Assembly: GCF_014643735.1 (NCBI RefSeq)
Contig: NZ_BMKA01000001.1
Span: 124,001-188,000, forward strand
Origin: Neptunicoccus cionae
GTDB lineage: Bacteria; Pseudomonadota; Alphaproteobacteria; Rhodobacterales; Rhodobacteraceae
Direction of reading: 5' to 3'
DNA length: 64,000 bases
Under the pieces are notes generated by a model. The model was given only the letters and a program-made list of their open reading frames with translations, ran no database searches and was not told where the DNA came from. The position numbers and the translations under genes are program-made. Positions within the stretch are counted from its first letter, which is position 1; each line of letters opens with the position of its first letter. This document shows positions 8,048-47,013 of the stretch, one piece after another.

Positions 8048-8075
8048 GGCGGGCGCAGCCGGAACCGCGCCCGCC
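8048..8075 (-). terminator. Attenuator-like hairpin between livK and livH
   Basis: Perfect 9-bp arms GGCGGGCGC (8048-8056) and GCGCCCGCC (8067-8075) with a 10-base loop, just past the livK stop. No clear T-tract follows, so it probably acts as a partial terminator or 3' stabiliser that leaves binding-protein mRNA in excess over permease mRNA. Confidence 0.6.
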
Positions 8076-8083
8076 GGATTGGC

Positions 8084-9220: not shown

Positions 9221-9266
9221 TATAGTTCTCCCTTGTTGTCGGTTTTTTCTGTTGGTTGTCGATAGG

Positions 9267-10889: not shown

Positions 10890-10903
10890 GTTTCCTGTCT
10901 CTC

Positions 10904-13334: not shown

Positions 13335-14068
13335 ATCTCGCCCCCCGACAGGCTGAGCGTGTGGCCATTTACGGAACGCGCCCCGTCCGAGCACAACCAA
13401 AGCGCCGTGCTCGCCACCTCATCGGTTTGGATAAAACGGCGTTGCGGATTGGTCTTTTGCAGAGATTTTATTGCTTGCTCGCGGGGCATTCCGGTTGTCT
13501 CCACGATGTTCTCTACGGAACGCTCCAGCAGCGGGGTTTCCACGAAACCGGGGCAGATCGCATTCACCGTGATCCCCGTTGCTGCCAGTTCCAGCGAAAG
13601 CGCGCGGGTCAGCCCCACCACCGCGTGTTTTGCAGCACAATAGCCCGCCACATAAGGATAGCCTTTCAACCCCGCCGTCGATGCAATGGCGATCATGCGC
13701 CCTTCGCCCGCGGCTTTCATATCGGGCAGAACCGCCTGCCACAGGTGAAACACGCCTGCCAGATTAACATCGGTCATGGCGTGTAAATCTGCGCTGGTCA
13801 TCTTTGCAAAGGGTTTGCTGAGCGCGGCACCCGCATTGGCAATCGCAACCGTAACGGGGCCGTTTTCTTTGCGGGCGGCATTGATAGCGTCTTCTACCGA
13901 AGCAACGTCGGTCACATCGCAAATCTGATAGGGCAGGCCTTGCGCTTTTAACGGCGCTTCGCTGCGCCCGAGGATGGTGACTTTTGCACCCTTACTGGCA
14001 AAGGCTTGCGCGATTTCCGCGCCAACGCCCGTGCCGCCACCGGATATAACAACGTGCTGCTGGGTCAT
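13331..14068 (-). CDS. Short-chain dehydrogenase/reductase, probable 3-hydroxyacyl-CoA dehydrogenase
   Basis: 245-residue classical SDR. Rossmann motif [13 protein letters not shown] at residue 8, NAG motif (AIANAGAA) near 82, catalytic Ser in [11 protein letters not shown] and the YCAAKHA (Y-x3-K) pair near 152. The C-terminus [21 protein letters not shown] is normal for the family. Its position between the ring-reducing flavoenzyme and beta-oxidation-type genes suggests oxidation of a hydroxyacyl-CoA intermediate with NAD. It overlaps the upstream gene by 4 bases (ATGA). Confidence 0.88.
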
Positions 14069-16359
14069 ACCTTGCCCACCATTTCCGCCTGCCGGTCCGC
14101 CAGACGCCAGTGCTGGTCACGTCCTGCGTCATAGGGCTGTGGCCAGTTTTCCTGACGATCACCGATGTCTGTCGCAGCATGTAGCGTCCAGTAAGGGTCC
14201 GCGAGATGGGGCCGCGCGAGGCACACCAGATCGGCCCGTCCTGCCATCAGGATGGAATTGACGTGGTCGGGTTCATAAATGTTGCCCACGGCCATCGTTT
14301 TGATCCCCGCTTCGTTGCGGATGCGATCGGAAAACGGGGTCTGGAACATACGGCCATAGACCGGTTGCGCCTCGGTCGAGGTCTGACCGGCGGAGACGTC
14401 AATAATATCGGCGCCAGCGCCTTCAAACATCTGCGCGATCTGCACAGCCTCGTCAGGGGTGACGCCATCATCGCCTGCCCAATCGTTCGCCGAAATCCGC
14501 ACCGCCATCGGTTTTTCCGCAGGCCAGACGGCCCGCATCGCCGCAAACACCTCAAGCGGGTAGCGCATCCGGTTTTCCAGCGACCCGCCGTATTCATCGG
14601 TTCGGATGTTGGACAGGGGCGAGATATAGGAAGAGATCAGATACCCGTGGGCCGCGTGCAGTTCGATCATGTCAAACCCCGCAGCCTGCGCCATTTCTGC
14701 CGCGGCAACGAACTGGTCCCGCACCATATCCATGTCTGCGCGGGTCATCGCCTGCGGCGTTGCATTTCCATCGGACCACGGAATGTCTGACGCGGACAGG
14801 ACCGGCCAGTTGTCGCTTTCAAGCGGCTGATCCATGCCTTCCCAGCCCACGCGGGTCGATCCCTTGCGCCCCGAATGGCCGATCTGACAGCAGGTCTTCG
14901 CATCGGTCTCGCCGTGGATGAAATCATTCAGCCGTTGCCACGCGGCCTGATGCTCCGGCGCATAAAGACCTGGACAGCCCGGTGTAATCCGGCCCTCGGG
15001 CGACACGCAGGTCATCTCCGTATAAACCAGCCCCGCGCCGCCCTTGGCGCGTTCGCTGTAATGGATCAGGTGCCAGTCGGTCGGGCAGCCGTCCACGGCC
15101 TTATATTGCGCCATCGGTGACACAACGATGCGGTTTTTCAAGTGCATATCGCGCAGTTGGAACGGCGCGAACATCGGTGCACGGGGCGGGGTGGTCTCTG
15201 CGCCGCCTGCCTGTTTTTGGAACCATGCCTCGGCAGAGGCCAGCCAGTTTGGGTCCCGCTCGCGCAGGTTTTCATGGCTGATCCGTTGGGATCGGGTCAG
15301 CAAGGAATAGTTCAGCTGCACAGGGTCCAGATGCAGATAACGTTCCACATCCTCAAACCACTCAACCGAATTGCGGGCCGCAGATTGCAGGCGCAGCACT
15401 TCCAGCCTGCGCTGATCCTGATATTTATCAAAAGCGGCGTCGAGATCAAGTTCTCCGGTGATATATTCCGCCAGTTCTATCGCGCTTTCCAAGGCCAGCT
15501 TGGTGCCCGACCCGATGGAAAAATGCGCCGTGGCAGAGGCATCGCCCAGCAGGACGACATTCTCATGGCTCCAGTTTTCGCAGAGCACGCGGGGGAAGCG
15601 TATCCACGCCGAGCCGCGAATGTGGTTGGCGTTGGTCATCAACGCATGGCCGCCCAGATGGTCCTTGAAAATGTCCTCGCAGATTTTGATGCTGGCCTGC
15701 TGGTCGATGTCGCCAAACCCGTAGGCATCAAAAGTGTCCTGAGAACATTCAACGATAAAAGTCGCGGTGTCGTCGTTGAATTGATAGGCATGGGCCCAGA
15801 CCCAGCCTTTGTCCGTTTCCTCAAAAATAAAGGTAAAGGCATCATCGAATTTCTGGTGAGTGCCGAGCCAGACAAACTGGCAGGTGCGCAGGTCGATATC
15901 TGGCTTGAACGTATCGGCAAACTCCATCCGCGTTTTGGAATTCAGCCCGTCAGCAGCCACAACCACATCATATTCGGACTGATAGGCGGCGGCGGATTTC
16001 ACCTCGGTTTCAAATCGCAGGTCAACGCCAAGTGCGCGAGCCCGTTCCTGAAGGATCAGCAGCAGCCGCTGCCGCCCGATGCCGCAAAACCCGTGGCCGG
16101 TGGACAGCATCTTCTGCCCCTGATGGTGCACTGCGATATCGTCCCAATAGGCGAAATGCTTGCGAATTTCAGCGGCGGAATCCGGATCGTTCGCGTGCAG
16201 ATTGTCGAGCGTTTCGTCCGACAAAACCACGCCCCAGCCGAAAGTGTCATCCAGCTTGTTGCGCTCCATCAGCACCACCTCTGCCAAAGGCTGGCGCAGC
16301 TTCATGGAAATCGCAAAATAGAGACCGGCGGGTCCACCACCCAAAACAGCTATACGCAT
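14065..16359 (-). CDS. Bifunctional 2-aminobenzoyl-CoA (salicylyl-CoA) monooxygenase/reductase
   Basis: 764-residue two-domain flavoprotein. Residues 1-about 385 form a group A flavin monooxygenase ([17 protein letters not shown] at the start, [20 protein letters not shown] near 290). Residues about 395-764 form an Old Yellow Enzyme-type reductase ([20 protein letters not shown]; the H-x2-H-like pair in [23 protein letters not shown]). This fusion is known from aerobic 2-aminobenzoyl-CoA monooxygenase/reductase, which hydroxylates and then reduces the ring without cleaving it by a dioxygenase. It is the first gene of a 12-gene operon with its own ligase and transporter. Salicylyl-CoA 5-hydroxylase is the alternative name for close relatives. 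Confidence 0.9.
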
Positions 16360-22805: not shown

Positions 22806-22895
22806 ATGGAGGGATTGTGATGCGCCAAGGGAGGGGAAAGCCAGTTTCGGATTTCCCCAAACTCCGGCAAATTTCTTGATTTAATGTGGTGACTT

Positions 22896-22904
22896 GGTCA
22901 GACC
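22896..22904. promoter_or_regulatory. GntR-type half-site palindrome upstream of the hpsN paralogue
   Basis: GGTCAGACC, within TTGGTCAGACCT, resembles GntR/FadR-family operators (GGT-N3-ACC). It lies 29 bases before the ATG at 22933. No GntR gene is in the window, so the match is suggestive only. Confidence 0.3.
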
Positions 22905-22932
22905 TCTTAAAAAACATCAAGGGAGCCGGAAC

Positions 22933-24240
22933 ATGGCGCGTGTTTATTTGAAGAAAGCCGAAAAGACTGCTAAAACGGACAGTGCCTCTGTGCAGCACAC
23001 GGTGCAAACGATCCTTGATGATATTGAACAGGGCGGCGAGGCAGCGGCCAAAAGCTATGCGCTGAAGTTCGACAAATATGACGGCCCGATGGTTCTGGAT
23101 GCAGCGGCCATTGCCGCAGCGGCGGATAAAGTTCCGCAAAAGCTGAAAGCCGACATCGCCTTCGCCCATGAAAACATCCGCAAGTTTGCCGAAGCGCAAA
23201 GAGGTTCGATGCAGGATTTCGAAATGGAAGTGCGTCCCGGCCTGATCGAAGGCCAGCGGACGATTCCGGTTCGTGCGGCAGGCTGCTATGTGCCGGGCGG
23301 GCGTTACTCTCATATTGCCAGCGCGATGATGACTGTGACCACCGCCAAAGTGGCAGGGGTGCAGAATATTAGCGTGTGTTCGCCACCGCAGGGGGATGCA
23401 GGGATCGCGCCGGCGATTATCTATGCGGCCCATTTGTGCGGCGCTGATAATATCCTGTCTATGGGCGGCGTGCAGGGTGTTGCCGCCATGACCTTTGGTC
23501 TGTTCGATTTGCCCAAGGCGGATATTATCGTCGGGCCGGGGAACCAGTTCGTAGCCGAGGCAAAGCGCATTTTGTTCGGGCGTGTGGGCATCGACATGAT
23601 CGCAGGACCAACGGACAGCCTAATCCTTGCTGATGGTGCGGCGGATGCGGAAATCGTGGCGGTGGATTTGGTCAGTCAGGCGGAGCACGGCTATAACTCT
23701 CCGGTCTGGCTGGTGACGGATGATGAAACACTGGCGAAAACCGTGATGGACCGCGTTCCAGAGCTGATCGCGAATTTGCCGGAACTCAACCGCGAAAACG
23801 CAACCGCTGCGTGGCGCGACTATGCCGAGGTGATCATCTGCGCCGACCGTGAAGAAATGGCGGCCACGTCGGATGACTATGCGCCGGAACATCTGACCGT
23901 GCAGGCGGCGGATCTTGATTGGTGGCTGGAGCGGTTGCAGTGTTATGGATCGCTGTTTCTGGGGGAGGAGACAACCGTGTCTTACGGGGATAAAGCGTCC
24001 GGTACAAACCACGTGCTGCCCACTTCGGGATCGGCGCGCTATACCGGCGGGCTTAGCGTCCACAAGTATATGAAAGTGGTCACATGGCAGCGCGCCACGC
24101 GGGACGGGGCCAAGCAGGTCGCCGAGGCCACAGCACGGATTTCACGGTTGGAAGGTATGGAAGGCCACGCCCGCGCCGCCGATGTGCGGTTGCACAAATA
24201 CTACCCCGACGAGTCCTTTGATCTGAGCGGAACTGCCTGA
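22933..24240 (+). CDS. HpsN paralogue: sulfopropanediol 3-dehydrogenase-like (HisD family)
   Basis: 435-residue zinc-dependent NAD dehydrogenase of the histidinol dehydrogenase family. It is co-linear, without gaps, with the HpsN at 39658-40965 and most positions match by eye. HisD-type zinc and catalytic residues are all present: Gln249, His252 (SQAEHG), Glu319-His320 (PEHL), Asp353 (GDKASGTNH) and His412 (EGHARAADV). It should oxidise a primary alcohol to a carboxylate with two NAD, DHPS being the known substrate of HpsN. No histidine genes are near, which argues against HisD. ATG 22933 has GGGAG upstream. Whether the substrate is DHPS or an analogue is open. Confidence 0.88.
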   Translation: MARVYLKKAEKTAKTDSASVQHTVQTILDDIEQGGEAAAKSYALKFDKYDGPMVLDAAAIAAAADKVPQKLKADIAFAHENIRKFAEAQRGSMQDFEMEVRPGLIEGQRTIPVRAAGCYVPGGRYSHIASAMMTVTTAKVAGVQNISVCSPPQGDAGIAPAIIYAAHLCGADNILSMGGVQGVAAMTFGLFDLPKADIIVGPGNQFVAEAKRILFGRVGIDMIAGPTDSLILADGAADAEIVAVDLVSQAEHGYNSPVWLVTDDETLAKTVMDRVPELIANLPELNRENATAAWRDYAEVIICADREEMAATSDDYAPEHLTVQAADLDWWLERLQCYGSLFLGEETTVSYGDKASGTNHVLPTSGSARYTGGLSVHKYMKVVTWQRATRDGAKQVAEATARISRLEGMEGHARAADVRLHKYYPDESFDLSGTA

Positions 24241-24242
24241 TC

Positions 24243-25229
24243 ATGCGCGCCCTTGTCTATACCGGTCCTCAAACGCTGGAAATGCAGGACAGGACGGATT
24301 TGACTGCTACGGGCGATGACAACCTGATCCGCGTGGATGCGGTGGGGATTTGCGGCTCTGACATGCACGCCTATCTTGGCCACGATGAACGCCGTCCCGC
24401 GCCGCTGATCCTTGGGCATGAGGCCGCTGGATTGGTGCTTGAAGGGCCAATGGCCGGGCAAAGGGTTACAGTGAATCCGCTGGTCACTTGTGGGACCTGC
24501 GGGTTGTGCCAACAGCAGCGCGAGAACCTTTGCACCCACCGACAGATCATTTCTATGGCGCCGCGACAGGGGGCCTTTGCCCAGCAGCTTGTGATGCCGA
24601 GCCGGAACCTTGTGCCCGTGCCGGATGCCGTGTCCATCGATTACGCCGCCTTGGCGGAACCGCTGGCGGTGTGCTGGCACGGGGCGCGTTTGGGACAGGA
24701 GGCGCTGTTTGGCCCGCTTGATCAGGCACGCTGTCTCGTGCAGGGCGGCGGGGCAATCGGTGTCGGAACTGCCCTTGCGCTGCGGGCGATGGGCGCGAAG
24801 GACGTTACCATTGTCGAACCGAACCTGAAGCGCCACACTGTGTTGCAAAGTATCGGGGACTTCGCCGTGCTTGATCCTGCCGGTGTTTCTGGCGCGTTCG
24901 ATCTGGTGGTGGATTGCGTCGGGATCAGCCACACCCGCCGCGCGGCCAGTGCACTGGTGCAGGCTGGAGGGGTGATCGTGCATATCGGTCTTGGCGATTC
25001 AGAACAGGGGCTCGACACCCGCCGCCTGACCTTGCAGGAGATTACCTTTATCGGCACCTACACCTATACCGCGCAGGATTTTCGCGACACGGCGCAGGGG
25101 ATATACGACGGTATATTCGGTGCGTTGGACTGGGCCGAGCATCGCGCCTTGAAAGATGGCGCTGCGGCCTTTGCAGAGATACTGGACGGCAAGGTCGCCG
25201 CCCCCAAAGTCATCCTGCATCCCTATTAA
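24243..25229 (+). CDS. HpsP paralogue: zinc-dependent alcohol dehydrogenase
   Basis: 328-residue medium-chain dehydrogenase. Catalytic-zinc region GICGSDMHAYLGHD and GHEAAG, structural-zinc lobe CGTCGLCQQQRENLC (four Cys), Rossmann GGGAIGVG near residue 168. It matches the HpsP at 41728-42708 closely, including HAYLGHDERRPAPLILGHE and TLQEITFIGTYTYTA. HpsP oxidises one enantiomer of DHPS at C2. It starts 2 bases after the HpsN-like gene. An HpsO (SDR) partner is missing from this copy of the module. Confidence 0.87.
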   Translation: MRALVYTGPQTLEMQDRTDLTATGDDNLIRVDAVGICGSDMHAYLGHDERRPAPLILGHEAAGLVLEGPMAGQRVTVNPLVTCGTCGLCQQQRENLCTHRQIISMAPRQGAFAQQLVMPSRNLVPVPDAVSIDYAALAEPLAVCWHGARLGQEALFGPLDQARCLVQGGGAIGVGTALALRAMGAKDVTIVEPNLKRHTVLQSIGDFAVLDPAGVSGAFDLVVDCVGISHTRRAASALVQAGGVIVHIGLGDSEQGLDTRRLTLQEITFIGTYTYTAQDFRDTAQGIYDGIFGALDWAEHRALKDGAAAFAEILDGKVAAPKVILHPY

Positions 25230-35167: not shown

Positions 35168-36184
35168 TTATAACCTTTGCAAAGAAGCGCGCATCTCAAT
35201 AGATATGTCCAGCTGATGAGACACTTTTTCCACTCGGTTTTCGATCAAGTCGATCAAACTTTCAGCGGCAACGCGACCCATTTGGCGGTGCGGAACATGC
35301 ACTGTGGTGAGGGCTGGAAAAACGTGCTTGGCCAGCTCAATATCGTCAAATCCGGTGACTGAAATATCATCTGGAACATTGAAACCCAAGTCGCGTGCCT
35401 TTGAGATTACCCCAGCTGCGAGAACATCGTTTCCGCACATGATTACTGTCGGTTTAACGTCAGCCTGAACCAGCTGTTCAAAGGCCGCAGCGCCGCTTTC
35501 TGTTTCATAGGGTGTCTGAATGATGGGGAGGTCATTTAGATGAAAGCCATGTGCCTGCCAGCTGTCCTGAATGCCAGCCAGTCGTTCCGCTGCGCGATCA
35601 TTGCCGTCAAGAATGCCGGAAATGACAGCAATCTGTCTGTGACCCATATCGATGACCTTGTCCGCTAACAGCCGCATTGCGGCACGGTTGTCAAATCCCA
35701 CAGAGGCGTGTTCCGAATCTGGTATCGAGGCCCATGCCAACACTGTTGGAATCCCACGTCGGGCCAGATACTCATACACCGCTTCGTCTCGTTCATAGCC
35801 GATCAGCAGCAGGCCATCTGCGCCACGCGCCACAAGTTCGCGAATTTGCTGAGCTTCCAGTTTCGGCTGATAGGCGCTGCTTGAGACCAGCAAATTGTAT
35901 CCTTTTTCAAGAAGTTTTTCCTGAAAAGCCTGCAAGCCGCGGGCAAAAATAGCGTTCTCCATCGTGGGAATTATCGCGCCGATTGTATGGGATTGTTTGG
36001 CCGCCATCGCCCGCGCGTTGAAATTCGGCGTGTAGCCAAGTGATTCTACCGCTTCCATCACTTTCGCCAGCGTTTTGGGCGACACTTTTTGTTTTTCGTT
36101 CAGGCAACGCGACACCGTAGCCGTCGAAACACCAGCGGCGTTTGCGACATCATCCAATGTAGGAATGCTAGGTGAAACATGCAT
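35168..36184 (-). CDS. LacI/GalR-family transcriptional regulator of the DHPS operon
   Basis: 338 residues. N-terminal LacI HTH (TLDDVANAAGVSTATVSRCL, with the hinge segment NFNARAMAAKQSHTIG near residue 55) and a periplasmic-binding-protein-like effector domain (GADGLLLIGYERDE, ISVTGFDDIELAKHVFPALT). It is divergent from the DHPS/TRAP operon and two LacI-type operators lie between, so it is almost certainly the local repressor, with DHPS or a downstream metabolite as inducer. Confidence 0.93.
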   Translation of the reverse strand: MHVSPSIPTLDDVANAAGVSTATVSRCLNEKQKVSPKTLAKVMEAVESLGYTPNFNARAMAAKQSHTIGAIIPTMENAIFARGLQAFQEKLLEKGYNLLVSSSAYQPKLEAQQIRELVARGADGLLLIGYERDEAVYEYLARRGIPTVLAWASIPDSEHASVGFDNRAAMRLLADKVIDMGHRQIAVISGILDGNDRAAERLAGIQDSWQAHGFHLNDLPIIQTPYETESGAAAFEQLVQADVKPTVIMCGNDVLAAGVISKARDLGFNVPDDISVTGFDDIELAKHVFPALTTVHVPHRQMGRVAAESLIDLIENRVEKVSHQLDISIEMRASLQRL

Positions 36185-36530: not shown

Positions 36531-37682
36531 ATGGATCAGCAAGATCGTAAAGAGATTGCGTCAGTAGAACGCCGGAATTTTCTAAAAGTAGCATCAAGCG
36601 CAGGTTTCACGGCCGCACTTGTGGCAGGTGCCGCAGGCACGCTTTGGTCGACTGAGGCCGCAGCGCAATCTGCCACTGAAGAGCGCGATCGCGAAGCCGC
36701 GGCCGAGCACACGATGACAGTCGCCACAGCCTATGTTCTGGGTGCATCGCGCAGCTATCCTATCATGCAGCTGGACCTCAAAGAGAACATCCAGAACGCC
36801 ACAAACGGCAAGGTCTACGTCAAGCTGGCCCCGGGTGGTCAGTTGGGTGCAGGCGGTGCGTTGGTGCAGGCCGTTCAGGGTGGCACAATCCAGGCCGCGC
36901 AGCATTCGCTGTCCAACTTTGCGCCTTTCGCCTCCACTGTTGACCTGATCAACATGCCTTACTTGTGTGGTTCCAACCAGCGTTTCACAAACCTTGTGAA
37001 CTCCGATTTTTGGAACACCAACGTCACGCCCAAAATCGAACAAAACGGCTTTAAGCCTTTGTTCTACGTCAACATCGACCCGCGGGTTGTTGCGGTTCGT
37101 AAGGGCGGCAACGGTGCTGTTCTGACGCCGGGCGATTTGGACGGGGTGAAATTCCGCGTGCCGGGGTCTGCGATGTTGCAGCAGTATTACCGCATGGTTG
37201 GCGCCAACCCGACGCCTGTTGCATGGGGTGAAACGCCTTCCGCGATCCAGCAGGGTGTGGCTGATGCGCTTGACCCGTCGGTCGGCGCGCTCTTCGTGTT
37301 CGGCTTCAAGGACATGCTGTCCCACGTGACGTTCACGCAAGCGGTACCAGACTCACAGGTCTATTCGTGTAACCTCGAATGGTTCAACTCCATGCCTGCC
37401 GACATCCAAGAAGGCATCATGTGGGCCTCCGAGATGACTGGGCACCAGAATCTTGCCAAAGTGCCATCCGCACGTGCGCATGCCATGGCCGAGCTGGCCA
37501 AAGCCGGCGTTGAATTCCACAGCCTCAGCGATGACCAGCTGGCCGAGTGGAAAGACGCAGGCGGTTATCAGCGTTCCGAGTGGGACGAGTTCAAGGTCGA
37601 GCTTGCTGGTTCCATGGATGCCTTTGCGCAGATGGAAGAAGCGGCCTCGACACAAGGTAAGTACTACGTGCACGACGCGTAA
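36531..37682 (+). CDS. TRAP transporter substrate-binding protein, DHPS operon (HpsKLM-type), Tat exported
   Basis: 383-residue DctP-family binding protein. The N-terminus has a twin-arginine motif, VERRNFLKVASSAG, followed by a hydrophobic stretch ending TEAAAQS, so export is likely by Tat in folded form. Further landmarks: LAPGGQLGAGGALVQAVQGG, LDGVKFRVPGSAMLQQYY and VADALDPSVGALFVFGFKD. It should bind DHPS given the downstream hpsN-O-P genes. GGGAGG precedes the ATG. A perfect hairpin follows the stop. Confidence 0.9.
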   Translation: MDQQDRKEIASVERRNFLKVASSAGFTAALVAGAAGTLWSTEAAAQSATEERDREAAAEHTMTVATAYVLGASRSYPIMQLDLKENIQNATNGKVYVKLAPGGQLGAGGALVQAVQGGTIQAAQHSLSNFAPFASTVDLINMPYLCGSNQRFTNLVNSDFWNTNVTPKIEQNGFKPLFYVNIDPRVVAVRKGGNGAVLTPGDLDGVKFRVPGSAMLQQYYRMVGANPTPVAWGETPSAIQQGVADALDPSVGALFVFGFKDMLSHVTFTQAVPDSQVYSCNLEWFNSMPADIQEGIMWASEMTGHQNLAKVPSARAHAMAELAKAGVEFHSLSDDQLAEWKDAGGYQRSEWDEFKVELAGSMDAFAQMEEAASTQGKYYVHDA

Positions 37683-37691
37683 ACGAACCCG

Positions 37692-37725
37692 TCGGACGCC
37701 GCCACGGCGTCCGACACTCTTTTTC
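37692..37725 (+). terminator. Intrinsic terminator/attenuator after the TRAP binding-protein gene
   Basis: Perfect 10-bp arms GTCGGACGCC (37692-37701) and GGCGTCCGAC (37707-37716) with a 5-base loop, followed by ACTCTTTTTCTTC. It has full terminator geometry yet lies inside an operon, so partial read-through into the permease and hps genes is expected. Confidence 0.8.
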
Positions 37726-37792
37726 TTCTACATGCAAACGGTTCGCGCACAGGATGTGCGGTCTGTTTGCATGGCAACCGAAGGGACGCATT

Positions 37793-38305
37793 GTGGAATT
37801 CCTGCGCAAATTTGATCAAAATGCGGAGCGCTGGCTACTTTTGATCTTCTACGTGATGCTGGTCATCACCATGGCCGTTGAAGTGCTGCGCCGCGAAATA
37901 TTCGCCTATTCGTCCATCTGGGGCGAAGAAATTGTGCGGTATTCCTTTATTTATCTCGCGTGGATCGGGGCCTCGGCGGCCATAAGAGAACGCGCGCACA
38001 TCCGCATTGATGTGGTCATGCACTATCTCGGTCAACGGCCCAAAGCGCTCCTGTATATGTTTGGTGATATCGTCATGATGGTTGTCGCTTTGATCGCGCT
38101 TTATTGGTCGTTTGAAGCTGTACACGTGTCATGGAAGTTCGGTTCTGTGACGGACGGTTTGCGGATCTCCAAGGTGTGGTTCCTCATGGCTGTTCCCACA
38201 GGTTTTGGCCTGATGATCTGGCGTCTGCTGCAATCGCTGCGCCGCGACTTCATTTCCCTCAAGACTGGCAAGCCGGTCTATGAGGGCGACACTCTGTTTG
38301 ATTGA
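37793..38305 (+). CDS. TRAP transporter small permease (DctQ), DHPS operon
   Basis: About 170 residues with four membrane segments and the DctQ landmarks IWGEEIVRYSFIYLAWIGAS and RERAHIRIDVVMHYL. The GTG at 37793 is preferred for its AAGGGA site and family-like length; an ATG at 37754 would add 13 residues. It pairs with the DctM 11 bases downstream. Confidence 0.9.
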   Translation: MEFLRKFDQNAERWLLLIFYVMLVITMAVEVLRREIFAYSSIWGEEIVRYSFIYLAWIGASAAIRERAHIRIDVVMHYLGQRPKALLYMFGDIVMMVVALIALYWSFEAVHVSWKFGSVTDGLRISKVWFLMAVPTGFGLMIWRLLQSLRRDFISLKTGKPVYEGDTLFD

Positions 38306-38316
38306 GGAGCAGCGCT

Positions 38317-39645
38317 ATGCTTTGGAACACTGTCGCGCAGACTGTTGAGCTTGGCTGGGACTTTTATGTGCCTGTCATCTTATTCGTAGCTCTTATCGCA
38401 ATGGCCGTGCCCGTGTGGGCGGCGATTGGATCCTCTGCCATTTTGATGTTGCTCATGTCAGGCGACCTGCCGCTCAGCCTTGTGGGCGAGCGGTTGTTCA
38501 CCGGCATTGACGCCTTTGCACTGACCGCGATCCCGCTGTTCATCCTGACCGGCGACGTGTTGGTCCGAACGGGGCTCAGTCGTAAGTTCCTCGACGTGGC
38601 CGAAGCACTCACCTGCTTCACCAAAGGCGGTTTCGGCTCTGCCACGGTGCTGGTCTGCGGCATGTTTGCTGCGATCTCAGGCTCAGACGCGGCTGGTGCT
38701 GCTGCGGTGGGTCGTATGACGATCGCTCGTCTGGTCGAGGCTGGATACCCCCGCCCCTATGCCTGCGCTCTGGTGGCCGCGGGTGCTTGTACAGGTATCC
38801 TGATCCCACCTTCTATCGCTTACATCATCATCGGCCTTGTGCTGGGTGTTTCCGCCTCCACCTTGTTCCTCGCGGCCTTGATCCCCGGTCTGTGCATCCT
38901 GTTTGCGATCCTGATCACCAACCTCGTTGTGAACCGGGTCTATGCCTATGAGGGCGGCGGCAATCTGACATTCTCCGAATGGCTGGCTAATCTGGGCCGT
39001 GCGCTCAAATCTGGCTGGTATGCGTTCATCGTGCCCGGCATCATCTTTTATGGCATCTTTTCTGGGCGTCTGACGCCAACAGAAGCCGGTGCAACTGCTG
39101 TTGTTGTTACGATCTTGATGGGGTTTCTCCTCAGAACACTTAGCTTTGCTGATTTCCCTGCGATGTTGGTCAGCTCGGCCAAGGTCAACGGCGTGATCCT
39201 TCCTATCATCGCCTTTTCTGCCCCACTGGCCGAAGCCCTTGCGATCATGGGTGTGCCACAAGGCTTTGTCACCTCAGCCACAAGCCTTACCAATGAGCCG
39301 TGGATCCTGATCCTGTTGATGATCGGCATCCTGATCGCGGCGGGCTGTGTGATGGAAACCACGCCCAATATCGTGATCTTGGCCCCGATCCTTCAGCCTT
39401 TGGCCGAAAACATCGGCATGAACGAGATCCAGTTTTGCATCATGATGATCACCGCGCTTGGTGTGGGATTCATCACGCCACCGCTGGGCCTTAACCTCTT
39501 TGTTGTCTCTGGCATCACGGGTGAATCAATCCTGAAGATCGCCGCGCGCGCCGTGCCATTTGTATTGTGCATGTTTGTCGTGGTCTTGTTCATCGCCTAT
39601 GTGCCAGCCGTTTCAACAACTTTGCTTCCAGATATCTACAAGTAG
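38317..39645 (+). CDS. TRAP transporter large permease (DctM), DHPS operon
   Basis: 442-residue transport subunit with about 12 membrane segments. Typical blocks: LTAIPLFILTGDVLVRTGLS, AISGSDAAGAAAVGRMTIAR, GACTGILIPPSIAYIIIGLV and GVGFITPPLGLNLFVVSGI. ATG 38317 follows GAGGAGC; a TTG 15 bases upstream is less likely. It ends 12 bases before hpsN. Confidence 0.93.
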   Translation: MLWNTVAQTVELGWDFYVPVILFVALIAMAVPVWAAIGSSAILMLLMSGDLPLSLVGERLFTGIDAFALTAIPLFILTGDVLVRTGLSRKFLDVAEALTCFTKGGFGSATVLVCGMFAAISGSDAAGAAAVGRMTIARLVEAGYPRPYACALVAAGACTGILIPPSIAYIIIGLVLGVSASTLFLAALIPGLCILFAILITNLVVNRVYAYEGGGNLTFSEWLANLGRALKSGWYAFIVPGIIFYGIFSGRLTPTEAGATAVVVTILMGFLLRTLSFADFPAMLVSSAKVNGVILPIIAFSAPLAEALAIMGVPQGFVTSATSLTNEPWILILLMIGILIAAGCVMETTPNIVILAPILQPLAENIGMNEIQFCIMMITALGVGFITPPLGLNLFVVSGITGESILKIAARAVPFVLCMFVVVLFIAYVPAVSTTLLPDIYK

Positions 39646-39657: not shown

Positions 39658-40965
39658 ATGACACGCGAATACCTCAAGAAAGCGACCCTCACATCGGCGT
39701 CTGGCGCATCGGACGTCCACGATACGGTTGTCACTATTCTGGATGACATCAAGGCAGGCGGCGACGCCAAAGCGATGGAATATGCTGCCAGATTCGACCA
39801 GTACGAAGGCAATGTTCTGTTGACCCAGGCCGAGATTGAAGCCGCCAGCGCCTTGGTTCCCGAAAAGCTCAAGGCGGATATCCAGTTCGCCCACGACAAC
39901 GTCAAACGCTTTGCCGAGCTGCAGAAGAGCACTGTCGCCGACGTCGAGATGGAGATCGAGCCGGGCTATGTGGCCGGTCAGAAGGCGATCCCTGTGGATG
40001 CCGCAGGCTGCTACGTGCCCGGCGGCCGCTACAGCCACATCGCCAGCGCCATCATGACCGTCACCACTGCTAAAGTGGCGGGTTGCAAGCACATCACCGC
40101 CTGTTCACCACCGCGCCCCGGCGTCGGTGTGGCCCCCGCCATCATCTATGCCGCGCACATTTGTGGCGCTGACAAAATCTTGGCCATGGGCGGCGTGCAG
40201 GGCGTGGCCGCAATGACCTACGGCCTGTTCGGGTTGCCCAAGGCCAACATTCTCGTCGGTCCGGGCAACCAGTTTGTTGCCGAAGCCAAGCGCATCTTGT
40301 TCGGCAGTGTCGGCATCGACATGATCGCTGGCCCCACCGACAGCTTGGTCCTTGCAGACAAGCACGCCGACCCGCACATCGTTGCGACCGACTTGGTCAG
40401 CCAAGCCGAACATGGCTACAACTCTCCGGTGTGGCTGGTCACTGACGACCGCGCATTGGCCGAAGACGTCATGGCGCGCGTGCCGGGCTTGATCGAGGAC
40501 CTGCCACAGCTGAACCGCGACAACGCATTTGCCGCATGGCGCGACTATGCCGAAGTCATCGTGTGTGCCGACCGCGTCGATATGGCCAAATGCAGCGACG
40601 AATACGCACCCGAGCATTTGACTGTGATGGCCGAAGACCTCGATTGGTGGCTGGAAAACCTGACCTGCTACGGGTCGCTGTTCTTGGGTGAAGAAACGAC
40701 AGTTTCCTACGGCGACAAAGCGTCGGGCACCAACCACGTTCTGCCGACTTCTGGCGCGGCGGGCTACACGGGCGGTCTGTCGGTGCACAAGTACATGAAG
40801 ATCGTCACATGGCAGCGCGCAACGCAAGAAGCCTCCAAGGATGTGGCGATTGCAACTGCCCGTATCTCGCGGCTTGAGGGGATGGAAGGGCACGCGCGCG
40901 CCGCAGATGTGCGCCTTGCCAAATACTTCCCCGGCGAAAATTTTGACCTGACAGCCGAAGGTTGA
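39658..40965 (+). CDS. hpsN: Sulfopropanediol 3-dehydrogenase HpsN
   Basis: 435-residue HisD-family zinc enzyme. HpsN oxidises (R)-DHPS at C3 to (R)-sulfolactate with two NAD. Zinc/catalytic residues by comparison with HisD: Gln249, His252, Glu319-His320, Asp353, His412, all present. The identification rests on family plus context: TRAP genes upstream, hpsO and hpsP immediately downstream, sulfopyruvate decarboxylase further on, and no histidine genes. A second, gap-free paralogue lies at 22933-24240. Confidence 0.93.
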   Translation: MTREYLKKATLTSASGASDVHDTVVTILDDIKAGGDAKAMEYAARFDQYEGNVLLTQAEIEAASALVPEKLKADIQFAHDNVKRFAELQKSTVADVEMEIEPGYVAGQKAIPVDAAGCYVPGGRYSHIASAIMTVTTAKVAGCKHITACSPPRPGVGVAPAIIYAAHICGADKILAMGGVQGVAAMTYGLFGLPKANILVGPGNQFVAEAKRILFGSVGIDMIAGPTDSLVLADKHADPHIVATDLVSQAEHGYNSPVWLVTDDRALAEDVMARVPGLIEDLPQLNRDNAFAAWRDYAEVIVCADRVDMAKCSDEYAPEHLTVMAEDLDWWLENLTCYGSLFLGEETTVSYGDKASGTNHVLPTSGAAGYTGGLSVHKYMKIVTWQRATQEASKDVAIATARISRLEGMEGHARAADVRLAKYFPGENFDLTAEG

Positions 40966-40969: not shown

Positions 40970-41731
40970 GTGACCCACACTGCCCCCCTTTTTGACCTGT
41001 CTGGCAAGGTTGCTTGTATCACAGGTGCCAGTTCCGGCCTTGGCCGTCGCGCAGCGATCACGCTCGCCGCGGCGGGGGCGTCGGTTGTGGTTATTGCAAG
41101 ACGTGCGGAGGCTTTGGATAGCCTTTGCGCTGAAATCGGCCCTAAGGCTGCGCGGGTCGTGGCCGATGTGGCAGACCGCGAAAGCCATGCGCAATTGGTC
41201 AGCGATGTTTCTGCCCCGTTTGGCGCGCCGGACATTCTGATCCATGCGGCGGGCGTCAACACGCGGCAAGTGGCGGATGACGTGACGCCGGAGGGATGGG
41301 ATCAAACGATTGCCCTGAACCTGAATGCGCCATTCTTTTTGTCTCAGGCCTTTGTGCCTGCCATGCGTGACAAGGGCTGGGGGCGCATCGTGAACTTTGC
41401 CTCATTGCAAAGCAAACGGGCCTTCCCCGGCGGCATTGCATATGGCGCGACCAAAGGCGGCATCAGCCAGTTGACCCGCGCCATGGCTGAGGCTTGGTCC
41501 CCCCACGGGATCAACACCAATTCCATCGGGCCGGGGTTTTTCCCCACGGAATTGACCGCGGCGGTTTTTGACGACCCAGCGCGTGCCGACCGCAATGCCG
41601 CGCAAACCTGTGTCGGTCGCAACGGGACATTGGAAGATATAGACGGCCCGATTTTGTTTTTGTGCTCGGATGCGTCTGCATTTGTCACAGGTCAGGTTCT
41701 GATGGTTGACGGAGGGTTCACTGCAAAATGA
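40970..41731 (+). CDS. hpsO: HpsO: DHPS 2-dehydrogenase (SDR family)
   Basis: 253-residue classical SDR: TGASSGLGRRAA at residue 18, HAAGVN (NAG-like) near 90, catalytic Ser in NFASLQSK and YGATKGG (Y-x3-K) near 158. With HpsP it interconverts the two DHPS enantiomers through the C2 ketone so that both reach HpsN. The start is GTG 40970, 4 bases after hpsN; its stop overlaps the hpsP start (ATGA). Confidence 0.9.
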   Translation: MTHTAPLFDLSGKVACITGASSGLGRRAAITLAAAGASVVVIARRAEALDSLCAEIGPKAARVVADVADRESHAQLVSDVSAPFGAPDILIHAAGVNTRQVADDVTPEGWDQTIALNLNAPFFLSQAFVPAMRDKGWGRIVNFASLQSKRAFPGGIAYGATKGGISQLTRAMAEAWSPHGINTNSIGPGFFPTELTAAVFDDPARADRNAAQTCVGRNGTLEDIDGPILFLCSDASAFVTGQVLMVDGGFTAK

Positions 41732-42708
41732 AAGCACTGGTTTATCAAGGCGTTGAGACATTGGATTTTACCGATGTGCCGGATGCGACCCCGCAAGCCG
41801 GAGAGCACCTGATTAAGGTTGAGGCCGTTGGCATCTGCGGATCTGACATGCATGCTTATCTTGGCCATGACGAACGCCGTCCTGCGCCGCTTATTTTGGG
41901 ACACGAGGCGGCTGGCAAGATCGTGGGCGGCACACATGATGGGATGCGCGTCACTGTAAACCCGCTGGTGACTTGCGGTGTCTGCCCTGCTTGCAAGGCA
42001 GGCCGCGAGAACCTGTGCCCTGAGCGGCAGATCATCTCAATGATGCCACGCGAAGGCGCGTTTGCGCAATATGTGGCGATGCCGATGTCCAATCTGGTCG
42101 AAGTGCCGGATCATGTGCCACTGGAAAAGGCCGCATTGGCGGAACCATTGGCCGTCAGTTGGCACGCCGCGCGACTGGTGCTTGAGGCGCTGCACCCCGC
42201 GATGGATCGTCGTGCGTTAGTGATCGGTGGTGGGGCCATCGGTTTGGCCGCGTCGCTTGCGCTGAAAGCGATGGGGCTGGACGACGTGACTATCGTGGAA
42301 CCTGATCCCGCCAGATGTGCCTTTTTGTGTGACCAAACGGGTCAAACTGCGGTTGCGGAGACTGACCAAAGTTATCCTGTGGTGATCGACGCGGTCGGGT
42401 TCGGGGTGACGCGCGCCTCTGCCACTCGCCTTGTGCAGCCGGGCGGTGTCATCGCGCACGTGGGTTTGGGCGATGATGGCCTCGGCCTAGACGTGCGCCG
42501 CATTACCCTGCAAGAGATCGCGTTTATCGGTACCTACACCTACACTGCCGTCGATTTTCGCGAAACGGCCGCTGCTCTGTTCGATGGGCGTCTCGGCCCG
42601 TTGGACTGGACCCAAACCCGCGCCTTGGCCGAAGGGGCAAATGCCTTTGCCGAACTGCGTGCAGGCGAGGTTGCGACACCGAAAATCATTCTTGCCCCCT
42701 GGTCTTAA
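41728..42708 (+). CDS. hpsP: HpsP: DHPS 2-dehydrogenase (zinc MDR family)
   Basis: 326-residue zinc-dependent dehydrogenase with catalytic region GICGSDMHAYLGHD/GHEAAG, structural-zinc lobe CGVCPACKAGRENLC and Rossmann GGGAIGLA near 168. HpsP acts on the DHPS enantiomer opposite to that used by HpsO, so the pair acts as a racemase. It overlaps hpsO by 4 bases. Close paralogue at 24243-25229. Confidence 0.9.
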   Translation: MKALVYQGVETLDFTDVPDATPQAGEHLIKVEAVGICGSDMHAYLGHDERRPAPLILGHEAAGKIVGGTHDGMRVTVNPLVTCGVCPACKAGRENLCPERQIISMMPREGAFAQYVAMPMSNLVEVPDHVPLEKAALAEPLAVSWHAARLVLEALHPAMDRRALVIGGGAIGLAASLALKAMGLDDVTIVEPDPARCAFLCDQTGQTAVAETDQSYPVVIDAVGFGVTRASATRLVQPGGVIAHVGLGDDGLGLDVRRITLQEIAFIGTYTYTAVDFRETAAALFDGRLGPLDWTQTRALAEGANAFAELRAGEVATPKIILAPWS

Positions 42709-42736: not shown

Positions 42737-43147
42737 GTGTATCAAAAAATCCTTGTTCCCATGGCGCTTGACCACGGTGTGTCCAAAGGCACCCTGGAGA
42801 TTGCCAAAGCTCTGACCGGCGGCACCGGTGAGATTATCGCCCTGCATGTCTATGAAGCGCCACAAGGGTCTATTCAGTCGTATGTAGATGATGCAGCCAA
42901 AGAAGAAGGGCTTGCGCGGGCGCGGGCCGAACTACAGGCAAAAACCGAACACCTGAGCGGCGTGAAGGCCAAGATGGTGATTGGACATACCTACCGCTCC
43001 ATCATTGACTATGCCGTGACGCACAGCATTGATTGCATCGTCATGGGATCACACAAACCGGGGTTCAGCGACTATTTTCTGGGCTCGACTGCTGCGCGTG
43101 TTGTGCGGCATGCGCCCTGCGCTGTGCACGTTTATCGCAGCACATAA
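42737..43147 (+). CDS. Universal stress protein UspA family, in the DHPS operon
   Basis: 136 residues from GTG 42737 (GGAG 8 bases upstream): KILVPMALDHGVSKGTLEIA at the N-terminus and the ATP motif MGSHKPGFSDYFLGSTAARV at the C-terminus. Usp genes are often found next to TRAP transporters, where some bind the transporter or ATP. It sits between hpsP and comD, 28 and 48 bases from its neighbours. Confidence 0.88.
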   Translation: MYQKILVPMALDHGVSKGTLEIAKALTGGTGEIIALHVYEAPQGSIQSYVDDAAKEEGLARARAELQAKTEHLSGVKAKMVIGHTYRSIIDYAVTHSIDCIVMGSHKPGFSDYFLGSTAARVVRHAPCAVHVYRST

Positions 43148-43195: not shown

Positions 43196-43702
43196 ATGAA
43201 TATCGACAAGAAGATCGTGGATGATCTTGTCGCAAACGACGTCTCTTTCGTCACCACCGTGCCGTGCAAACAGCTCGCTGGTGTGATCGAAGAGGTCGAC
43301 GTACGCGAAGACATTTTCCATATCCCGTCAAACAAAGAAGACGAAGGCATGGGGCTGTGCGCCGGTGCCTTTATGGGCGGCAAACGCCCCGCCATCATCA
43401 TGCAGAACACCGCGATTGGTGTGACGATCAATACGTTGGCAACGCTGACGCAATTCTACCGCATGCCGCTGCCGATGATTATCTCCTACCGGGGTGAATT
43501 GCGCGAGCCTGTGGCCTGTCAGGTCGAAATGGCAGTACACACCAAAGCGCTGCTGGCACAGTTGAACATCCCGACCTACCACTTCCACTGGAAGGACGAT
43601 GTCAAGGAATTCGACAACATCCTGAAATACACCTTCATGTGCAACAAACCCGTGGCGATCCTGACCGACGCCAACTTCTGGGGAGGCTATGGCGACCAAT
43701 GA
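43196..43702 (+). CDS. comD: Sulfopyruvate decarboxylase alpha subunit
   Basis: 168-residue alpha subunit, matching the pyrimidine-binding half of thiamine diphosphate decarboxylases. IPSNKEDEGMGLCAGAFMGG carries the Glu that activates the cofactor; IIMQNTAIGVTINTLATL and MIISYRGELRE are ComD-like. With ComE it decarboxylates sulfopyruvate to sulfoacetaldehyde. The small split-subunit size distinguishes it from full-length TPP enzymes. It overlaps comE by 4 bases. Confidence 0.93.
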   Translation: MNIDKKIVDDLVANDVSFVTTVPCKQLAGVIEEVDVREDIFHIPSNKEDEGMGLCAGAFMGGKRPAIIMQNTAIGVTINTLATLTQFYRMPLPMIISYRGELREPVACQVEMAVHTKALLAQLNIPTYHFHWKDDVKEFDNILKYTFMCNKPVAILTDANFWGGYGDQ

Positions 43703-44253
43703 TCCGTTCTGAAATTCTCAAAGAAATCGCCCCGATCCTTAATCCGCACCTTGTTGTTTGCAACATCGGTCTGCCCAGCCAAGAGCTGCACATGATCGAT
43801 GACAACGAGCGTAACTTTTATATGCTTGGTACAATGGGTCTGTCGTCTTCCATCGGCTTTGGTCTGGCACTTGCGCAAGACAAGCCAGTGATCTCCATCG
43901 ACGGGGACGGCTCGGTTTTGACCAACCTTGGCACATTGCCCACCATCGCCAACAATGCGACGGGCAACTTCACGCTGTTGATCATCGACAACGGGTCCTA
44001 TGGCTCCACCGGGGATCAGCCGACATACGCAGGCATGAAAACCAACCTGACGAATGTGGCGCGTGCATGTGGTTGCGAAAACGTCGTGGAAGTGCAAGAC
44101 AAGGACCTTGGCACCGTCTTGCAAGCCGCCATCGACAGCGAAGAGATGACCATAATCGTATGCAAGTGTGACAGCGGGAACATCAAACTGCCTGTCATCA
44201 CGATGGACCCGGTTGTGATCCGTCACCGCTTTATGGAAGCTGTGAAAGGCTGA
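43699..44253 (+). CDS. comE: Sulfopyruvate decarboxylase beta subunit
   Basis: 184-residue beta subunit with the ThDP-diphosphate/Mg motif GDGSVLTNLGTLPTIANN and FYMLGTMGLSSSIGFGLALA. It completes the active site with ComD. Phosphonopyruvate decarboxylase is the nearest alternative, but no phosphonate genes are near and sulfonate genes are. Its TGA overlaps the ATG of the next gene. Confidence 0.93.
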   Translation: MIRSEILKEIAPILNPHLVVCNIGLPSQELHMIDDNERNFYMLGTMGLSSSIGFGLALAQDKPVISIDGDGSVLTNLGTLPTIANNATGNFTLLIIDNGSYGSTGDQPTYAGMKTNLTNVARACGCENVVEVQDKDLGTVLQAAIDSEEMTIIVCKCDSGNIKLPVITMDPVVIRHRFMEAVKG

Positions 44254-45380
44254 TGTCCGTCAATGCCATCCATAGTGCCGAGGATGCACGACGTGTTGCA
44301 AAGCGGCGCCTTCCATGGATGGTGTTTGACTACATTGACGGCGCCGCAGGGTGCGAAACAGGGGCGGCGCGCAATCGGGCCACCCTTGATGCCGTTACAT
44401 TACGGCCACGTATTCTGCGCGACGTTGCTACCCGCGATCTAAGAGTGCCTCTGTTCGGTACACAAGCCGCGCGCCCGTTTGGCATTGCACCGATGGGCAT
44501 GTGCAATCTTAGCGCGCCGGGGGCGGACCTGATGCTGGCCCGTTTGGCCGCGCAATACAAAGTGCCCCATGGTGTGTCGACCGTGGCCTCGACACCGCTT
44601 GAGAAGATTATCGAAGTCGCCGAAGGGCACGCTTGGTTTCAACTGTATTTCACCGGAGACGGGACCGGCACGTTCCAACTGGTCGAACGAGCCAAGGCAG
44701 CGGGTTATACGACCCTCGTGTTGACAGTCGATGTGCCAGAGGTTGGTCGCCGCCCTCGCGAATTGCGGCACGGTTTCAAAATGCCGTTCTCGATCGGGCC
44801 GCGCCAATTTATTGATTTTGCTCTGCACCCTCGTTGGTCACTGACGCAGCTTGCAGCCGGCAAACCCCAAATGGCCAACTTTGAGATGGACGGCTATGAT
44901 TTTGATCGCACGGAAAGCCGCGCCAAAGCCACATGGGACACGTTGGCCAGATTGCGTGACATGTGGCGCGGGAAATTGGTGGTCAAGGGGGTGCTAGACG
45001 TAGTTGACGCGGCAGACCTAAAGAAAGCTGGCGTTGATGCCATCCAAGTCTCCAGCCACGGTGCGCGCCAATTGGAAAGTGCGCCAGCCCCGATTGAAGT
45101 ACTGCCGCGCATACGTGCCGAAGTCGGCCCCGATTATCCATTGTTTTTTGATAGTGGCATAAGGTCTGGCGAAGATGTTATGCGTGCCATGCAGCAAGGC
45201 GCAGATTTTGTGTTTCTTGGGCGTATTTTGCAGTTCGCTATCGCAGCTGGAGGGGAGGCCGGACTACATCGGCTTTGGGATGTCATCAGCGACGAAATGA
45301 GCATCGCTATGGCGCAGACTGGGCAAGCGCTGCTTTCTACCAATCCTGAGCCTTCTTCGAGTCAAGCAATCAACCTATGA
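44253..45380 (+). CDS. FMN-dependent L-2-hydroxyacid dehydrogenase, candidate (R)-sulfolactate dehydrogenase
   Basis: 375-residue member of the LldD/glycolate-oxidase family (TIM barrel with FMN). The family residues are present: Tyr in MVFDYIDG, Tyr in WFQLYFTGD, Asp in LTVDVPEVG, Lys245 (VVKGVLD), His269 and Arg272 (SSHGARQLE, where family members usually read SNHGGRQLD). It overlaps comE (TGATG) and ends the operon. The missing step between HpsN and ComDE is oxidation of (R)-sulfolactate to sulfopyruvate; this is the only candidate here and L-specificity fits. L-lactate dehydrogenase is the alternative. Confidence 0.88.
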   Translation: MSVNAIHSAEDARRVAKRRLPWMVFDYIDGAAGCETGAARNRATLDAVTLRPRILRDVATRDLRVPLFGTQAARPFGIAPMGMCNLSAPGADLMLARLAAQYKVPHGVSTVASTPLEKIIEVAEGHAWFQLYFTGDGTGTFQLVERAKAAGYTTLVLTVDVPEVGRRPRELRHGFKMPFSIGPRQFIDFALHPRWSLTQLAAGKPQMANFEMDGYDFDRTESRAKATWDTLARLRDMWRGKLVVKGVLDVVDAADLKKAGVDAIQVSSHGARQLESAPAPIEVLPRIRAEVGPDYPLFFDSGIRSGEDVMRAMQQGADFVFLGRILQFAIAAGGEAGLHRLWDVISDEMSIAMAQTGQALLSTNPEPSSSQAINL

Positions 45381-45596
45381 CTAAGTTTCACAGACGTCCG
45401 CGGTCTCAAAAAAAGAGACATAAATTCACGGAAATCCCTTAGTGTGCAAACGTTTGGCTTGCGTTTGATAGCAGAGCGGGAAAACTCCTTGAGGTCAGCT
45501 GCAGGTATCAAATGGGCCACCCATTTAAACGGCTTGTACTTCTGGCATCCGATGCCCTTAAGCCGTGCAAAACCGTCAATCACAAAGGGCTTTGTC

Positions 45597-47013
45597 GTGA
45601 CTTCAGAAGGCACGCATCTGGATCCGGAAGACTGGGACGATTTTGGCCGCGACATGCACAAGTTGATGGATCAATGCCTTGCTCGATTGAAGAATGCTAG
45701 GGACTTGCCCTGGCAACCTAAGCCCGATGACCTTGTGGATAGGGTGTCCCTCACGCACGGGACCATTGGCGTTGGCGCAGAACAGGTGTTTGCTCGGTAG
45801 GCCGATGACATTATGCCTTACGCGACCGGCAATACGCATCCACGGTTTTTTGGTTGGGTTCATGGGGCGGGGCTCCCGGTTTCTGTTGGGGCTGAATTGG
45901 TTGCCGCGACGATGAATAGCAACTGCGGCGGCCGCGACCATGGTGCTATCGAAGTCGAACGGGCCGTTCTGGATTGGCTGCTTGCTGTTTCGGGGTTGCC
46001 CGATAGTGCATCTGCCATTCTGACTACTGGCACATCGCAAGCCACAATTCTGGCGTTGACCGCTGCGCGCAACAAGCAATTTGGTTGTGACGTTAGAGAG
46101 ACAGGTATCCAAGCGCTGCCACGCATCGCCGTTTATGTGCGCCGTGGTACGCATTCGTGCATCGGTAAGGCCCTTGAAGCGATGGGCTACGGGACCGAGG
46201 CAATCCACGTCGTCGAGACGGACGATGAAATGAGGATGGTGTCGCGTCATTGAAGCGCGCTGTTATAGAAGACCAAGCTGCTGATCGCCTTCCTTTGGCT
46301 GTGGTTAGCACCGTGGGTTCGGTTAACACTGGTTCGTTCGACAATCTAAACGAGTTGGCTGATTTCTGTCAGGGTCAAGATATCTAGCTCCATGTGGATG
46401 CCGCCTTTGGGTTTTGGGCCCGCCTCGCGGATGATCCATGGGCGCGGCTTGTTGACGGGATGGAACGGGTAAACTCGATTTCCTGCGATTTTCACAAATG
46501 GATGTCTATCCCTTATGATTGCGGTGGCTGCATGATCTACGATCGCAGCTTGCATCTTGACACGTTCACATCGCGCCCAAACTATCTTGAACAACAACAA
46601 GAAGGGCTTGGCGGAGGCGATTTATGGTTTTGTGACTATGGGCTGGAACTGTCGCGTGGATTTCGCGCCCTTAAAGTCTGGACCGCGATAAAATCGATCG
46701 GAACCCAAGCCTTCTCTGCGTCCATTACTGACAACTGCAAGCAGACTGCTTTGATGGCTATGTTGGTCGAAGCATCCGATGTTTTGGACCTTTCCTTTCC
46801 AGTTTCTTCTAATATTTGCTGCTTCTACGCGCATACGGCAACGTGAACGAAATCGCGGCCGAGTTTCAGCTCTCCAGCGATGCCGTATTCTCGACGACTG
46901 TTATCAAAGGCAAGGCGTGTCTACGAGCAGCCTTAGTCAATCACCGCACGACATCCGAGGATATCCGTCAGTCGATCCGTGCCGTTGAGGCTGCGGTTAG
47001 ACGTCACATGTAG
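45597..47013 (+). pseudogene. Decayed group II PLP-dependent amino acid decarboxylase
   Basis: Near full-length remnant in at least three pieces. Frame 1 runs from a GTG at 45597 (TSEGTHLDPEDWDDFGRDMH), through an in-frame TAG at 45798-45800, to 46253. The reading continues one frame over from 46250, crosses a TAG at 46385-46387 (between QGQDI and LHVDAAFGF), and reaches 46846. A further shift leads into NEIAAEFQLSSDAVFSTTV and the end at 47013. The PLP-lysine block SCDFHKWMSIPYDCGG and HVDAAFGFWAR identify a glutamate/aromatic/cysteine-sulfinate-decarboxylase relative. Decay looks recent because the pieces join without gaps. Confidence 0.9.

Follow-up and report, generated by a model that had tools for sequence, protein, structure and literature searches.

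The gene at positions 44253-45380 (forward strand) of the 64,000-nucleotide stretch of the Neptunicoccus cionae genome analyzed here (hereafter the window) is slcD, as judged by orthology and operon position. Its product is very likely an enzyme of the flavin mononucleotide (FMN)-dependent (S)-2-hydroxyacid dehydrogenase family, probably membrane-associated, which would oxidize (R)-(L-)3-sulfolactate, a sulfur compound of algal origin, to 3-sulfopyruvate in the degradation of 2,3-dihydroxypropane-1-sulfonate (DHPS), an abundant compound by which carbon and sulfur pass between algae and bacteria. The proposed function is supported by orthology and synteny with an annotated SlcD, by published pathway schemes, by the linkage of the gene to comDE and by its placement in a separate clade. 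An earlier note, made from the sequence of the window, had presented the gene as an LldD-family flavoenzyme that would be the missing sulfolactate dehydrogenase; on the same grounds, the function stands, whereas the word 'missing' does not, given that the step is already known and the enzyme was named slcD in a 2014 re-annotation.

In the scheme that we propose, HpsKLM would import DHPS, HpsO and HpsP would handle its two enantiomers, HpsN would convert R-DHPS to sulfolactate, SlcD would oxidize sulfolactate to sulfopyruvate with transfer of electrons to the quinone pool, ComDE would decarboxylate sulfopyruvate to sulfoacetaldehyde, and Xsc, encoded elsewhere, would release sulfite. For SlcD itself, the substrate, the choice of the R form, the binding of FMN, the role of His269 as catalytic base and electron transfer to the quinone pool instead of to NAD or oxygen are predictions from sequence comparison. 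With this identity of SlcD, the organism appears to hold genes for the ordinary route from DHPS to sulfoacetaldehyde, one oxidation of which probably feeds electrons into the membrane.

The gene is an intact open reading frame (ORF) with an ATG start that encodes 375 amino acids and shares one base with the stop codon of comE; the protein matches PF01070 (FMN_dh, Pfam) with E = 1.4e-117 (393 bits, cut-off 24.9), in agreement with its initial description as an FMN-dependent 2-hydroxyacid dehydrogenase overlapping comE. The AlphaFold2 model of the protein (predicted local distance difference test score, 88.9) has as its best fold match 6bfg, the monotopic membrane-bound (S)-mandelate dehydrogenase, and one of its loops aligns with that structure without gaps, in line with a probable membrane association of the SlcD product. 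That the enzyme is an oxygen-using oxidase rather than a respiratory dehydrogenase appears very unlikely, because this top fold match and the gap-free loop alignment are to a membrane-bound dehydrogenase and because the slcD annotation, in the excerpt available, reads membrane-bound.

For the comparison of active-site residues, 180 loci were reduced to 159 proteins plus that of the window (identical proteins were counted once and the short fragments L125 and L126 were dropped), and the proteins were grouped by identity to the window protein rather than by linkage: at least 60% (122 proteins, hereafter linked, which include some whose neighbors are not visible because the contig ends), 47-60% (10, intermediate) and below 47% (28, other FMN dehydrogenases). 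Tyr132, Asp160, Arg167, Lys245, His269 and Arg272, which we take to have the catalytic roles in this family, are invariant in all 160 proteins, so that the full catalytic set noted originally is indeed present. Tyr27, presumably another active-site residue, is Tyr in 121 of the 122 linked proteins (with a gap in the remaining one) and Phe in 8 of the 10 intermediate ones. The unusual form of the His loop, also remarked on originally, was borne out: position 268 is Ser in 114 of the 122 linked proteins (Asn in 6, Thr in 2) and in none of the 10 intermediate ones, compared to Asn in all 28 other FMN dehydrogenases; the complete loop SSHGARQLE is found in 77 of the 122. Four further positions separate the groups (linked, intermediate and other FMN dehydrogenases, respectively): Trp22 (120/122, 0/10, 0/28), Met81 (122/122, 10/10, 1/28), Cys84 (122/122, 9/10, 0/28) and Arg219 (122/122, 10/10, 0/28). 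Trp22 and Ser268, which are absent from the intermediate proteins, together with Met81, Cys84 and Arg219, can thus be used as sequence markers to separate the linked clade from the other FMN dehydrogenases. Arg219 was considered as a sulfonate-binding residue, but no role is claimed for it because the intermediate proteins also have Arg at this position and gaps occur nearby in the alignment with 6bfg.

In Ruegeria pomeroyi DSS-3, a genome recognized by a 100% match of 3001 bases of its second contig to NC_006569.1, the genes hpsR, K, L, M, N, O, P and a universal stress protein (Usp) gene are followed, in this order, by the orthologue of the window gene, which occupies the same place and whose product shares 68-69% identity with the window protein. 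Denger et al. are said to have described, in 2009, a membrane-bound and inducible sulfolactate dehydrogenase of Roseovarius nubinhibens, SlcD, whose step precedes those of ComDE and Xsc. The 2014 re-annotation of R. pomeroyi, in the excerpt available, lists SPO0590-SPO0598 in exactly the order just given for this genome, gives SPO0598 as slcD, 'Membrane-bound sulfolactate dehydrogenase', and cites Denger et al. (2009) for sulfolactate degradation. In the available parts of the respective papers, SlcD is placed between HpsNOP and ComDE-Xsc in three organisms (PMC11382572) and is assigned the role of a sulfolactate dehydrogenase (PMC12330013, PMC6278857). A description of SlcD as an FMN enzyme was not found in the excerpts of the literature searched, and we make no claim that the family assignment is new.

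Linkage was assessed in the best 80 of 317 confirmed relatives from a scan of contigs (75-90% identity), from records titled mostly with Rhodobacteraceae or roseobacter genera and, in two cases, only 'Alphaproteobacteria bacterium' (L066, L079); 68 of these loci, with at least 1.3 kb upstream, were evaluable. In 60 of the 68, comD and comE lie directly upstream of slcD, with 3-35 bases (mean 8.65) between the end of the comE match and slcD; as the match excludes the stop codon, a distance of 3 equals the one-base overlap of the window. Another six have hps genes directly upstream without comDE: the Usp gene adjoins slcD in L052, L066, L081 and L085, as in R. pomeroyi, and hpsP adjoins it in L061 and L067, the former with a partial comE-like match (54%). 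Altogether, linkage to comDE or hps genes is kept in 66 of the 68 loci, and hpsN is found within 8 kb in 57 of the 61 loci with at least 6.5 kb upstream. Relatives at 64-80% identity are also encoded in 13 plasmid records of PLSDB; the five examined contain the full operon in the same order (hpsR of L004 falls outside the examined stretch), whereas hpsN, hpsO, hpsP and comDE were not found in the four plasmid records examined with relatives below 47%. Among 295 genomes sampled from the family of R. pomeroyi, a match at E <= 1e-100 was obtained in 54, of which 44 reach 60% identity or more and 10 lie at 47-56%. Three loci (L187-L189) have comD-comE-slcD without hps genes. Together with L054 and L056, discussed below, they show that slcD travels with different partners.

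The phylogenetic tree included 87 of the 160 proteins (all those below 75% identity, every fifth of the more similar ones, L010-L012 and the window protein) and was built by a quick method without bootstrap. The linked homologues (49 rows, including the window protein and SlcD of R. pomeroyi) form one side of a branch with a Shimodaira-Hasegawa-like approximate likelihood ratio test (SH-aLRT) support of 99, the separate clade of comDE-linked homologues for which the earlier note had proposed to look. The linked homologues and the 10 intermediate proteins are joined at 100, with the other FMN dehydrogenases outside. The intermediate proteins are not a single clade: eight group at 86, and L198 and L199 attach to the linked homologues (support 96), a placement flagged as a possible long-branch effect. 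This topology bears on the possibility that the gene encodes a conventional L-lactate or glycolate dehydrogenase (LldD) and lies in the operon by chance. L-lactate dehydrogenase models are indeed the best NCBIfam matches of the window protein, but both scores are below the cut-offs (269.6 vs 376 bits for NF008398 and 239.7 vs 550 for NF033901), and each of eight SlcD-bearing genomes encodes, besides one SlcD, between one and three further FMN dehydrogenases (31-45% identity), which group apart. Given these scores, the clade of its own and the conserved linkage, a plain LldD function was rejected as extremely improbable.

Under the Cahn-Ingold-Prelog rules, CH2SO3H outranks COOH, so that L-configured sulfolactate is R, and oxidation of R-DHPS at C3 retains the configuration and yields R-sulfolactate. 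Those relatives whose structures have been solved use the L-type acid as substrate, (S)-mandelate or an (S)-2-hydroxyacid according to the molecule names, which corresponds to R in sulfolactate. HpsN of R. pomeroyi is selective for R-DHPS, and a figure legend labels SlcD as R-sulfolactate dehydrogenase (PMC11131964, in the part available); the original argument from priority rules that (R)-sulfolactate is the L-form is thus sound chemistry and concurs with this label. In R. pomeroyi, according to the same paper, HpsP acts on S-DHPS and GabD-2 carries the oxidation of either form through to sulfolactate; therefore, S-sulfolactate may arise as well, and no enantiomer assay of SlcD was found in the excerpts of the literature searched. 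Nevertheless, oxidation of (S)-sulfolactate, or of both enantiomers, appears unlikely in view of the L-type preference of the relatives, the specificity of HpsN and the published label, and we favor (R)-sulfolactate as the substrate of SlcD.

Xsc, the predicted next enzyme after ComDE, was not found in the window in a tblastn search with the protein of Sulfitobacter mediterraneus DSM 12244 (G001), but scores above the cut-off in all eight SlcD-bearing genomes compared to none of 14 control genomes. In L003, xsc lies two genes from hpsR; it was not found in any other locus examined around an slcD gene. As for a second sulfolactate dehydrogenase next to xsc, which the earlier note had regarded as a possible objection, no 2-hydroxyacid dehydrogenase was found among the nine ORFs scanned within 18 kb around xsc in one genome, that of S. 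mediterraneus (L217), where two aminotransferase-type proteins, a phosphotransacetylase, a molybdopterin oxidoreductase and a ferredoxin-type protein are encoded.

Several observations weigh against the assignment of the sulfolactate step to SlcD, or to SlcD alone. Two of the 68 linked-clade loci (L054 and L056) are without hps genes and comDE, and no matches to hps, comDE or xsc were found in them. In the Ruegeria genus sample, SlcD is present in four of the five genomes; in the fifth, it was not found, the best match being 42% identical. Met81, Cys84 and Arg219 also occur in all or nearly all of the nearest relatives beyond the linked clade; these residues are no proof of sulfolactate as the substrate because nine of the ten such relatives sit in a cassette with a DmdA-family gene (see below). 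Furthermore, other enzymes could perform the step. ComC presumably belongs to the Ldh_2 family (PF02615), which we take to be unrelated to that of SlcD. An Ldh_2 match is present in seven of the eight SlcD-bearing relatives (G008 is without one), and three of the eight carry a close relative (68-94%) of L215, the R. pomeroyi Ldh_2 protein encoded at 3.40 Mb: identity to L215 is 94% in G002, 81% in G004, 68% in G006, 42% in G005, 40% in G001, 39% in G007 and 29% in G003, where one of two matches was compared. The re-annotation of R. pomeroyi, in its available part, lists SPO3187 as comC, and the available introduction of PMC11382572 gives SlcC or ComC for the sulfolactate step, with SlcD named only later. 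By position, L215 may be SPO3187; it scores 180 bits against the NCBIfam ComC model, below the threshold of 500, and the adjoining gene encodes a betaine/carnitine/choline transporter (BCCT). Given these Ldh_2 proteins and the annotated comC, a second enzyme besides SlcD may serve the sulfolactate step in some relatives.

ComC was also considered as a hidden enzyme for the step and was set aside, as NF040650 (L-sulfolactate dehydrogenase) is above the cut-off in none of nine genomes; this result is weak, given that only one of the 14 controls passes and R. pomeroyi, with its annotated comC, fails, so that the cut-off may be set too high for bacteria, and SlcC was not searched for. The statement of the earlier note that there is no NAD-type SlcC or ComC holds for the operon, in which none was seen; the whole window was not scanned for those families.

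The closest relatives outside the SlcD clade are less known than slcD. In nine of the ten intermediate loci (L190-L197 and L199), the gene for the SlcD-like protein (the ten are 47-56% identical to the window protein) is followed by a gene for a thiamine diphosphate (ThDP)-dependent decarboxylase-like protein and a DmdA-family gene, a conserved three-gene cassette for which no published description was found in the literature excerpts searched; the tenth (L198) lies beside hpsN, hpsO and hpsP. Two of the cassettes were scored against family models: their DmdA proteins are above the cut-off of NF009133, the dimethylsulfoniopropionate (DMSP) demethylase model (544 and 506 vs 410 bits), and their ThDP proteins stay below all the cut-offs given for the models that they match. 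The DmdA encoded in the L190 cassette shares 52% identity with its closest R. pomeroyi homologue, and an additional DmdA copy (57-58%) is encoded elsewhere in three of the five cassette genomes searched. A class-wide sample of 289 genomes contains five with a match to the SlcD-like protein of L190 at E <= 1e-100: the query's own genome, G305 and G066, in which the match is the SlcD gene, and G464 and G516. It is tempting, although rather doubtful, to place SlcD, as one of several branches, in a larger subfamily of membrane FMN dehydrogenases that act on organosulfur 2-hydroxyacids, with a dimethylsulfonio-hydroxyacid, such as 4-dimethylsulfonio-2-hydroxybutyrate (DMSHB), as the candidate substrate of the cassette. 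Such a pathway is a guess; if true, the cassette would be an unrecognized route into DMSP-type catabolism.

The operon around slcD is the published hps operon with comDE added. All its genes are on the forward strand except for the divergent hpsR (35168-36184, reverse strand), an ORF for a LacI-family regulator 56% identical to R. pomeroyi hpsR. The tripartite ATP-independent periplasmic (TRAP) transporter genes hpsKLM (36531-39645; 83, 74 and 87% identical to those of R. pomeroyi) encode a binding protein (36531-37682, above the NF037995 cut-off) and a small and a large permease (37754-38305 and 38302-39645), assigned by synteny only. Downstream lie the predicted DHPS 3-dehydrogenase gene hpsN (39658-40965; PF00815, E = 1.3e-133; 81% to R. 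pomeroyi hpsN by tblastn), assigned by sequence membership in the histidinol dehydrogenase family and by synteny; hpsO (40970-41731; PF13561; 68% to the syntenic hpsO by tblastn), for a short-chain dehydrogenase/reductase-type DHPS dehydrogenase; and hpsP (41728-42708; PF08240/PF00107; 66% to the syntenic hpsP), for a zinc-type one. The hpsQ-like Usp gene (42737-43147), with an inferred GTG start, has weak UspF/UspG matches below the cut-off, the position of SPO0597 (hpsQ) and 46% identity to it (tblastn). The sulfopyruvate decarboxylase genes comD (alpha subunit, 43196-43702) and comE (beta subunit, 43696-44253) score 148.5 bits against TIGR03845, barely above the cut-off of 147.95, and 242.5 bits against TIGR03846 (cut-off 221.5), respectively, so that the presence of HpsN and ComDE in the operon, read originally from the sequence, is upheld.

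A second hpsN-like gene (73% to the operon copy) followed by a second hpsP-like gene (60%) lies at 22894-25229; hpsO, comDE and slcD were not recognized beside this pair in the ORF listing. Just downstream of slcD (45444-46846), pieces of a pyridoxal phosphate-dependent decarboxylase in separate frames apparently represent a decayed gene, searched piecewise only: PF00282 matches 45813-46253 and 46394-46846, and no NCBIfam match was found for 45444-45800. Finally, a cluster at 4689-16359 resembles aromatic acyl-coenzyme A (CoA) degradation; from the ORF listing, we take it to include ATP-binding cassette (ABC) transporter genes, an acyl-CoA ligase-like gene, an acyl-CoA dehydrogenase, an enoyl-CoA hydratase and a 764-residue flavoprotein that presumably resembles 2-aminobenzoyl-CoA monooxygenase/reductase.

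The linkage counts, the separate clade, the residue signature and the closest fold match to the membrane-bound (S)-mandelate dehydrogenase are added here to what was known of SlcD. Public records title these genes 'alpha-hydroxy acid oxidase' or 'alpha-hydroxy-acid oxidizing protein', so that the present assignment improves their annotation and offers a well-defined target for assays of enantiomer choice.

Compared to known systems, the closest counterpart is the R. pomeroyi locus, which differs from that of the window in having no comDE between the Usp gene and slcD, and that organism is assigned to the CuyA route in the available part of PMC11382572. The HpsNOP-SlcD-ComDE-Xsc set given there for Jannaschia sp. 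CCS1, Ruegeria sp. ANG-S4 and Granulosicoccus, compared by gene set only, comprises the same genes as the window except for Xsc. ComC, the NAD(P)H-dependent (R)-sulfolactate dehydrogenase (PMC5695019, in the part available), has the same overall reaction as that proposed for SlcD but a different cofactor. The (S)-mandelate dehydrogenase 6bfg differs from SlcD in its aromatic substrate and in insertions of 3 and 4 residues directly following the aligned loop. The DmdA-family cassette would share with the window operon the conversion of a 2-hydroxyacid to a 2-oxoacid followed by ThDP-dependent decarboxylation, but ends in a demethylase.
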